DNA from: Fimbriimonadia bacterium
GTDB lineage: Bacteria > Armatimonadota > Fimbriimonadia > Fimbriimonadales > JABRVX01
Reading direction: 5' to 3'
DNA length: 32,654 nt
Assembly (NCBI GenBank): GCA_039961735.1
Contig: JABRVX010000033.1
Coordinates: forward strand, 1 to 32,654
Made by a program: the position numbers and the translations under genes. Of the stretch, positions 402 to 5,411 are shown piece after piece. Positions within the stretch are counted from its first letter, which is position 1. Each line of letters begins with the position of its first letter. The notes beneath the pieces were generated by a model. That model did no database searches. It had not been told where the DNA came from and was given only the letters and a program-made list of their open reading frames with translations.

Positions 402-3005
<2,604 letters not shown>

Positions 3006-3041
3006 TTGGCGACACTCCGGGGAGTTCTAGATTTCGAATGA

Positions 3042-3062
3042 CTTGAGTGCCTCATTGTCAAG
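3042..3062 (-). promoter_or_regulatory. HAIR-like HspR operator of clpB
   Basis: The plus strand shows CTTGAGT, 7 nt, TGTCAAG. The HAIR consensus bound by the MerR-family repressor HspR is CTTGAGT-N7-ACTCAAG. One half-site is perfect, the other matches 5 of 7, and the spacing is exact. The element ends 36 nt before the clpB start. Read on the minus strand, the weaker half contains TTGACA, a consensus -35 hexamer, so a bound repressor could block the clpB promoter. No clear -10 box could be fixed. HspR control of clpB and dnaK is known in actinobacteria and some other phyla. No hspR gene lies in this window. Confidence 0.7.
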
Positions 3063-3170
3063 TCTATTGCTACAAATGGTTTACGTACAGGACGGCTGTT
3101 GCGTTCCCGCCTACGGCGAATAGCCTGGCGCGGCAGGACCGGCACCTCGACCACGGGAATGATCGTACCC

Positions 3171-5411
3171 ATGCACGTGATGGTTTCACTGTTTCTCAGC
3201 ATCGGCCTGCTCGGCCTCGCGGACGCTTCCGACTCACTTGCGGAGCGGCTCCAGGCAGCCCTGGCTGCGCGCGCCCCCGAAGCCCTGGCGCCGCTCGTGG
3301 AAGGGGCCCCGGAAAAGGTCTGTGGCTACGCCTTGCGTTCGGCTCCCGACCTCGAGTGGTCTGTACAGCCCCTCCGCACGCCCGGGGGGATCGAGTACCT
3401 GCGCGTCTTTGCTGGGATCGAGCGGGAGCGCCTCCATCCCGTCCACGAAGGCCGAGTGGGTGAACCTTTCCCCGAATTCGAGACCTTCGGCTACCGAGTT
3501 ACGGATCACGACGTGACCGTGAACGTCACGGCGCCGGGCGGCAAGGTCACGGTGGTCTGCGAGGGGTCGCTCGAATACGAGAAGGTTCCTCCCGGCGACC
3601 CCATCCTGCGCTTGCACCCCGGCCTGAAGGTCACCGAAGCCCGGGTCGCAGGTACGGTGGTCGAGGTGGTTCGGTCGGGAAGCTATCTAGCGCTGCCGAA
3701 GCCCATCGCCAGCCGCGTGCGTGTGCGTATCGCTTACGAGACAGATCCAGGAACGGAACCCAGCCTCTGGGTCGGGGACATGAGTATCGGATTGCTGGAC
3801 CGCTGGGTGCCGAGGACTGGGCTGGAACCCATCGGGTATCGGCTACACGCCGACGTGCCGAAGGGATGGGCCGCCGTGGCCACCGGCAGTCTCTCTTCGC
3901 GCACCGATTCCGATTCCGGCAATCGATTCGAGTTCGCCACGGAAGCCCCTTCCGGTCGCGTCGTGTTCTGTGCGGGCCCCTATTTGCAGGTAACCAAGAG
4001 ACAGGGTGATAGGACGCTCAGCGCTTGGGTCTTCTCCGGTGGGCAGCCTGTCGCGGAGAGTCTCCTCGCGGCGGCCGCGCCGGTGCTGGCGCGGTTCGAT
4101 GGCTGGTTCGGGCCCCTGCCCTGGGATCAGTTTCACTTCGTGGAGGCCCCGCAGTCCGCTACACGGGCCGCCGCAGGGAACGTCATCGTGTGGCATCGCG
4201 GCGTGTTCGAGAGGCCTTCGCTACGAGACGTTGCGCTCGCCTGGTGGGGAAGCGCGGTTGTTGACACGGGAGCGACCGGGTTCTGGTCGGAATCCTTCGC
4301 CAACTACTCGTGGGCGCTGTATCGCCGACGACCTTCAGACGATGCTCCTGCCGTGCTCGACATCATGAACTCTCCCCGACCGGCAGGGCGACTCCTCGCG
4401 GGATGGGAGGAGTTCGCACTAACGGATTGCTCCGATATGACCGCTCTCCGCCAAGCAACCGTGGCACGGCTGAAAGGCCCCATGGTTCTCAGCCACCTCG
4501 AGCGCGTCATCGGGTTCGACACGATGCTGAAGGCGCTACGGGCGTTTCGGAGTGGCGTTGGTGACGGCGGAGTTGCCACCTGGACGGACTTCGAGCGTGC
4601 GGTTTCCAAAGTTGCCGAGAAGGAGATGAAGCCCTTTTTCGACGAGTGGGTCCGAAGGCCGGGTCTGCCCGACCTCGTGTGGGCCGATCTGAAGCTTCTG
4701 GAGGGCCAGGGCAAGGTGACGATAACGGGCACGCTGGAGCAGAGTTCCCCCATCTACGACCTCGACATCGATCTGCTCGCGGTGGGTCCGCGCGGCCGAA
4801 CGTGGAGTGGAAAGCTACAGGTCAAAGCGGACTCCACGCCGGTTAGCATCGAGCTTCCTTTCTACCCGAGCTCTATCGCTTTCGACCCTTATCTGCTTAT
4901 CCCGCGCTCCTACGATCCGGACGGCCAGCCTCCGACCATCTCTAGTCTGGACACCTTTCTGCGCCGACCGGATACCGTAGTCGTGGTGCCGCGAGCGATG
5001 CAGGAACGGGTAGGTGTCCTTCTCGCGCCGTTTCGAGACGTCACTGCGGTGATAGCCGAGGACGCCAAGGAGGAGGATCTCGAAGGGAAGAACCTGGTCC
5101 TGCTCGGCAGCCCCGATACGAACCCCGTTTGGGACAAACGGTCGGCTCAGTCCCCACTCGTCTTCACAGCGGGCTTCGTCTCGGTGGGCGGACAGAACTT
5201 TGCTGCAGACGAATGCTTCGCTGCGGCCGTCGTGGAGACCCAGGATGTCAAGCCACGCTTCATCGTGTTCGCGACGGAGCTCCGGCTGGGGTCACTGGGC
5301 GTGGATTTCGCTGCCGCCGTGGTGCTGGATCGCTCCGGGAAGGTAGTGGGTGGCCTGCCCGCTCGGTTCGTCAAGGGTGACAGCGTGTGGCGATTCCATC
5401 CGAGTCCGTAG
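3171..5411 (+). CDS. secreted M1-peptidase-like protein, zinc site lost
   Basis: The protein is about 746 aa with an N-terminal signal peptide (MHVMVSLFLSIGLLGLADA), so it is probably exported. The middle region follows the M1 aminopeptidase (gluzincin) fold: a beta-rich N-domain, a segment in the place of GAMEN (AAAGNVIVWHR), then LRDVALAWWG, which lines up with the M1 signature HELAHQWWG. Both zinc histidines and the catalytic glutamate are replaced (R352, D353, L356). The third ligand region survives as SESFANY (E374). Near residue 495 there is FFDEWVRRPGLP, typical of M1 C-terminal halves. The last 150 residues form an alpha/beta region (VVVVPRAMQERVG, LVLLGSP) that I cannot assign. In-frame starts also exist at 3099 and 3159; 3171 was chosen for the signal peptide and a GGGAA about 10 nt upstream. 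Probably a non-catalytic homologue; function unknown. Confidence 0.8.
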   Translation: MHVMVSLFLSIGLLGLADASDSLAERLQAALAARAPEALAPLVEGAPEKVCGYALRSAPDLEWSVQPLRTPGGIEYLRVFAGIERERLHPVHEGRVGEPFPEFETFGYRVTDHDVTVNVTAPGGKVTVVCEGSLEYEKVPPGDPILRLHPGLKVTEARVAGTVVEVVRSGSYLALPKPIASRVRVRIAYETDPGTEPSLWVGDMSIGLLDRWVPRTGLEPIGYRLHADVPKGWAAVATGSLSSRTDSDSGNRFEFATEAPSGRVVFCAGPYLQVTKRQGDRTLSAWVFSGGQPVAESLLAAAAPVLARFDGWFGPLPWDQFHFVEAPQSATRAAAGNVIVWHRGVFERPSLRDVALAWWGSAVVDTGATGFWSESFANYSWALYRRRPSDDAPAVLDIMNSPRPAGRLLAGWEEFALTDCSDMTALRQATVARLKGPMVLSHLERVIGFDTMLKALRAFRSGVGDGGVATWTDFERAVSKVAEKEMKPFFDEWVRRPGLPDLVWADLKLLEGQGKVTITGTLEQSSPIYDLDIDLLAVGPRGRTWSGKLQVKADSTPVSIELPFYPSSIAFDPYLLIPRSYDPDGQPPTISSLDTFLRRPDTVVVVPRAMQERVGVLLAPFRDVTAVIAEDAKEEDLEGKNLVLLGSPDTNPVWDKRSAQSPLVFTAGFVSVGGQNFAADECFAAAVVETQDVKPRFIVFATELRLGSLGVDFAAAVVLDRSGKVVGGLPARFVKGDSVWRFHPSP

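Follow-up and report, generated by a model that had tools for sequence, protein, structure and literature searches.

The window, by which we mean the whole 32,654-nt stretch of DNA analysed here, comes from an uncultured relative of Fimbriimonas and contains a clpB gene separated by a short intergenic region from a divergent open reading frame (Table 1). Two elements lie in tandem in this region, a HAIR-type inverted repeat and, upstream of it in the direction of clpB, a candidate ECF-type promoter. As argued below, the inverted repeat is very probably an HspR-operated off-switch for clpB.

Table 1. Features of the clpB upstream region and of the candidate sigma factor gene (window coordinates unless a locus is given)
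Feature	Position	Strand	Remarks
clpB, ATP-dependent chaperone ClpB, 867 aa	402..3005	minus	TIGR03346, 1377.8 bits (cut-off 1232.1)
Intergenic region (153 bp) separating clpB from the divergent ORF	3006..3158		carries the HAIR site and the ECF-like element
HAIR-type putative HspR operator	3042..3062	minus	CTTGACA-ATGAGGC-ACTCAAG in the clpB direction
ECF-sigma-like promoter	3079..3108	minus	GGGAAC (3108-3103)-N18-GTAAAC (3084-3079); −10 starts 22 nt before HAIR
Divergent ORF (ATG at 3159, about 750 aa)	3159..5411	plus	start uncertain
ECF sigma gene	L314 1465-2070 (G000:C59)	minus	promoter-like element 25 nt before the start

The HAIR site and its conservation

The HAIR consensus reported in PMC6102357, CTTGAGT-N7-ACTCAAG, is matched at 12 of 14 positions with exact spacing, the forward strand reading CTTGAGT-N7-TGTCAAG. 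The first-pass annotation had given half-sites of 7/7 and 5/7, an N7 spacer, the coordinates 3042–3062 and a distance of 36 nt to the clpB ATG (at 3005 on the minus strand), and re-reading the sequence returned the same values. Taken alone, the match is within chance and is weak evidence, with one site of up to three mismatches observed in the window and 0.80 expected from shuffles. Genome-wide enrichment was dropped as evidence because the reversed-pattern control gave more sites of this quality (126) than the HAIR pattern itself (41). The window genome has six sites with two mismatches, namely those at clpB and dnaK and four within ORFs; their position led us to reject these four as further targets, as it did the relaxed-pattern matches within ORFs of relatives (L093, L095–L097, L102, L106, L109–L111, L113).

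Two observations lift the clpB site above chance. The window genome has a second, near-identical site upstream of dnaK, and relatives have the element upstream of clpB as well. A genome search located the copy, the 21-mer CTTGACAATAAGGCACTCAAG, at C6:20699–20719, with one spacer difference from the clpB site and its end 68 nt upstream of the dnaK start. The operon that follows has the order dnaK-hsp20-dnaJ-hspR (L022). Its last gene encodes HspR by NCBIfam NF047375 (108.2 bits, cut-off 105), and its DnaK and DnaJ also score over their model cut-offs. The first-pass annotation had named the lack of an hspR gene as a refuting finding, and the gene is there. Of the 31 genomes searched for HspR homologues, comprising the window genome and 30 others of the same order, 29 gave a match at E 1e-8 or better, and family f3 has a dnaJ-hspR arrangement. 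At two loci (L123, L159) the intergenic region with the HAIR site lies between dnaJ-hspR and a divergent gene, similar at both loci, which may come under the same regulation.

Conservation was scored with either HAIR form allowed, within 150 nt upstream of the gene or up to 9 nt inside it, in the 28 of 31 genomes in which a clpB start could be placed (G014, G023 and G025 lack a usable one) and at 30 dnaK loci from 29 genomes, G011 contributing two. Sites with at most three mismatches precede clpB in 22/28 genomes (shuffle mean 0.26, largest 2) and dnaK at 25/30 loci (shuffle mean 0.35), counts drawn from genomes of one order that are not independent of each other; at most two mismatches are found in 16/28 (shuffle mean 0.02) and 23/30, respectively. 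A stricter weight matrix, derived from 18 dnaK sites, also retains 16/28 clpB upstreams at shuffle p ≤ 0.01. The clpB-side element spans five families. A lack of conservation in relatives was the other refuting finding named in the first-pass annotation, and both tests thus went the way of its proposal. The six genomes without a clpB site at three mismatches (G007, G013, G022, G024, G027, G029) all have hspR. Among the dnaK misses, G020 has a perfect site just beyond the 150-nt limit, and the second dnaK copy of G011 (L260, G011:C36) has no HAIR site.

The two positions at which the clpB site departs from the consensus correspond to a CTTGACA form that is common in the order Fimbriimonadales. 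The left half is mostly CTTGAYA in families f1, f2, f4 and f5 and CTTGAGT or CTTGAGC in several f3 genomes; the dnaK site of G015 is a classical HAIR without a mismatch. Searching the 31 genomes for CTTGACA-N7-ACTCAAG with up to one mismatch returned 32 places; 17 of the 28 new loci lie directly before dnaK or clpB, as do the two exact sites of the window genome. Of 338 ORF upstreams taken as a control pool, 38 carry a HAIR site with at most two mismatches, nearly all of them belonging to dnaK, dnaJ, clpB or genes divergent from these.

The first-pass annotation had further predicted that HspR, and not CIRCE/HrcA or sigma32, controls clpB, and the hspR gene, the conserved operator and the absence of the rival elements support this prediction. 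The window genome has an HrcA gene, but control of clpB through it was rejected, since the CIRCE box, TTAGCACTC-N9-GAGTGCTAA, does not occur in the window and the three boxes in the genome precede two GroES-like genes (L025, L027; G000:C47, C9; genes recognised by eye). Control by sigma32 was likewise rejected, as no gene in the genome scores over the RpoH cut-off (TIGR02392; best 165.7 bits, cut-off 323.1). The sequence-based case for an HspR operator before clpB is strong. HspR is probably only part of clpB control, however, because the conserved promoter at this gene is the ECF-type element upstream of HAIR.

A candidate ECF promoter and sigma factor

The clpB upstreams of family f2 carry GGGAAC-N18-GTAT, and the window carries GGGAAC-N18-GTAAAC. 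The shared pattern, GGAAC-N18-GT[TA], is present in 31 of 58 clpB and dnaK upstreams (clpB 15/28, dnaK 16/30; shuffle means 0.15 and 0.19) versus 3 or fewer at each of the other spacings between 8 and 30, and outside f2 in 13/39, again versus at most 3 at other spacings. It occurs in 18 of the 338 control-pool upstreams, comprising 13 of dnaK, that of the window's clpB, one of dnaJ and three others, and its rate in unrelated ORF upstreams is about 1%. The window genome's own dnaK has no such element. Two narrower patterns were searched. GGAAC-N17-CGTANAC has four matches in the window genome (one each upstream of clpB and of an ECF sigma gene, two within large ORFs) and none for the reversed control, the first two being partly circular because the pattern was derived from those sites. 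In 13 chosen genomes, GGGAACTT-N16-GTAT is found at 35 places, versus 2 for the reversed pattern, and at none in the window genome. Behind it lie clpB, dnaK, hsp20, the gene of an ArsR-type regulator and ECF sigma genes (L265, L267), but also genes that have no role in stress and stretches with no reading frame. The stand-alone hsp20 genes of f2 (L270, L284) have the ECF-type element with a three-mismatch HAIR 1–2 nt behind it. An ECF promoter upstream of the clpB HAIR site is likely.

Genes for candidate sigma factors often carry the same motif. Taking the best SigH-like ECF gene with a returned locus from each of 30 genomes, we found that 21 of the 30 loci have GGAAC-N18-GTW no more than 220 nt before the model match (6 loci for the next best spacing, shuffle mean 0.2). 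Both the window-genome gene and every one of the nine f2 genes of one type bear the site, and each of these is followed by an HX3CX2C reading frame; f3 and f5 sigma genes of another type have a site with GTT. In the window genome this frame scores over the Pfam zf-HC2 cut-off (PF13490), contains the motif HLARCEAC and a hydrophobic stretch (by eye), and falls below the RsrA cut-off (TIGR03988; 19.8 bits, cut-off 62.5). The ECF sigma gene overlaps this zinc-finger anti-sigma gene (L314 947-2070, G000:C59) and, given its promoter-like element, is probably autoregulated. Nine sigma genes lack the site (L293, L295, L299, L301, L302, L310, L313, L317, L319), and since several of them are close relatives of the window-genome sigma gene, we count this against a strictly conserved regulon. 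The SigH_actino model (TIGR02947) was rejected as a name for the sigma factor, because none of the 31 genomes exceeds its cut-off (window genome best 132.5 bits, cut-off 251.55).

The ECF assignment has one competitor, in which GGGAAC-N18-GTA is a housekeeping variant or another regulator's site and HspR alone gives the stress response. The f2 element lends itself to this, as its −10 (GTATAAT, in some cases GTATTAT) is also TATAAT-like, would serve a primary sigma factor well and could thus be used by the housekeeping one, and the motif also precedes carbamoyl-phosphate synthase and SRP54-type GTPase genes, which have no obvious stress role. However, the downstream half in the window, GTAAAC, is unlike TATAAT, the motif stands before 21 of 30 ECF sigma genes and before about 1% of unrelated ORFs, and it resembles the SigH/SigR consensus of PMC3489674 in geometry. 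We consider this alternative unlikely. The window site carries GTA where the SigH/SigR-type consensus, of GGAA(C/T)-N18-GTT geometry, has GTT.

The TTGACA arm of the operator

The first-pass annotation had noted that the clpB operator overlaps a TTGACA −35-like hexamer. The overlap is present; its use as a −35 element in the window was rejected, as it has no −10 partner, the best TATAAT match 17–19 nt further on agreeing at 3 of 6 positions (by eye). The arrangement at dnaK is different. Among public dnaK loci, 18 of 21 placed upstreams have a HAIR site with at most three mismatches, with Armatimonadota, Acidobacteria, Aquificota and Methylomirabilota represented. By eye, all 18 have TTGACA in the left half; the spacing to a TATAAT-like hexamer downstream is 17 nt in 15 of them and 19 nt in three, which are Fimbriimonadales. 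In the dnaK sites of our Fimbriimonadales genomes, a hexamer with five or six matches lies at 19 nt in 11/24 and at 17 nt in 2. Because TATAAT-like hexamers follow at 17 or 19 nt, the degenerate-looking HAIR arm at dnaK is a −35 element contained in the operator. TTGACA is the usual half-site where operator and promoter overlap, and scans based on the Streptomyces consensus will score such operators too low.

It is conceivable that HspR acts on clpB in the same manner, through TTGACA as a housekeeping −35 and with no ECF promoter, and the dnaK hexamers of relatives and other lineages are what speaks for it. Against it, the window lacks the hexamer, and in most relatives the clpB HAIR site ends 0–14 nt before the ATG, downstream of any TATAAT, so that TTGACA cannot be the −35 element there. 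We regard this explanation as quite improbable. That the inverted repeat arose by chance, with clpB outside HspR control, is hardly credible: about one such site per window is expected and genome-wide enrichment is absent, but the dnaK copy and the conservation across five families speak against it.

The 19-nt spacing at dnaK in Fimbriimonadales (L132–L138, L141 and others) contrasts with 17 nt in other lineages. Spacers of 19–20 bp are characteristic of MerR activator promoters, and 19 nt is unusual for a primary sigma factor. A MerR-type activation promoter was rejected nonetheless, and plain repression is preferred, because the HAIR centre is off the spacer centre at dnaK and the clpB site lies downstream of its promoter.

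A model for clpB control and its relation to known systems

We hold with good confidence that the best explanation of the locus is an HspR operator at 3042–3062 together with an ECF-type promoter for clpB just upstream. HspR, encoded at the end of the dnaK-hsp20-dnaJ-hspR operon, is predicted to bind this site. Transcription of clpB would initiate from GGGAAC-N18-GTAAAC (minus strand, 3108–3079) with a start near 3075, an assumed position that would place the operator at roughly +13 to +33. As long as cells are unstressed, bound HspR would keep the open complex from forming or the polymerase from escaping the promoter, and on heating its binding would be lost and the promoter freed. In Streptomyces, loss of HspR binding on heat is linked to DnaK. 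Stress would also set the ECF sigma factor free of its anti-sigma partner, a zinc-finger protein, to drive the clpB promoter. The elements and genes of this model, with their spacing and conservation, are observed; HspR binding, the start site, the identity of the sigma factor, repression and the heat response are inferred. The HspR site is of a known type, and the putative double control by HspR and an ECF sigma factor is the new part. As far as we found, the two layers meet only at clpB in the window genome, since its own dnaK is without the ECF element. With modest confidence, we lean towards a composite switch for heat-shock disaggregation across Fimbriimonadales. In it, an ECF sigma factor that controls its own gene and is paired with a membrane-located zinc-finger anti-sigma factor would turn on clpB, joined in relatives by dnaK and hsp20, and HspR sitting directly downstream of that promoter would keep it off.

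A limited literature search found no HspR circuit or heat-shock sigma regulon described for Armatimonadetes, and a search on Chloroflexi, Deinococcus and Acidobacteria gave nothing relevant. If correct, our model would place an actinobacteria-like double circuit, built on a different sigma subfamily, in Armatimonadota, and would give a phylum with little regulatory biology a concrete heat-shock circuit, with HspR at dnaK and clpB, HrcA at groE and a predicted ECF sigma factor at clpB. In Streptomyces coelicolor, as described in PMC2687793, HspR/HAIR controls dnaK, clpB and lon; common to both systems are a MerR-family HspR, HAIR sites before dnaK and clpB, and HrcA kept for groE. The system described here differs in its half-site, which is CTTGAYA and not CTTGAGT in f1, f2, f4 and f5, in the presence of hsp20 in the dnaK operon, and in phylum. 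PMC3489674 gives the promoter consensus of Mycobacterium tuberculosis SigH and S. coelicolor SigR as GGAA...N16...NGTT. Points in common with SigH/RshA plus HspR of Corynebacterium glutamicum and with the SigH/SigR promoters of Mycobacterium and Streptomyces are a candidate ECF promoter of like geometry on clpB and other heat-shock genes, an ECF sigma gene beside an anti-sigma gene, and HspR in the network (PMC3489674). Unlike these systems, the −10 is GTA and not GTT in f1 and f2, the sigma factor scores below the TIGR02947 cut-off, the anti-sigma factor here appears, by eye, to contain a membrane segment, and the sigma gene itself carries a promoter-like element. In Helicobacter pylori, according to PMC6102357, HspR on a HAIR-like repeat also represses chaperone operons. 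There HspR and HrcA act jointly on groE and dnaK, whereas in the window genome the HAIR and CIRCE sites that we located stand before different operons, and from these positions HrcA and HspR seem to serve separate targets.
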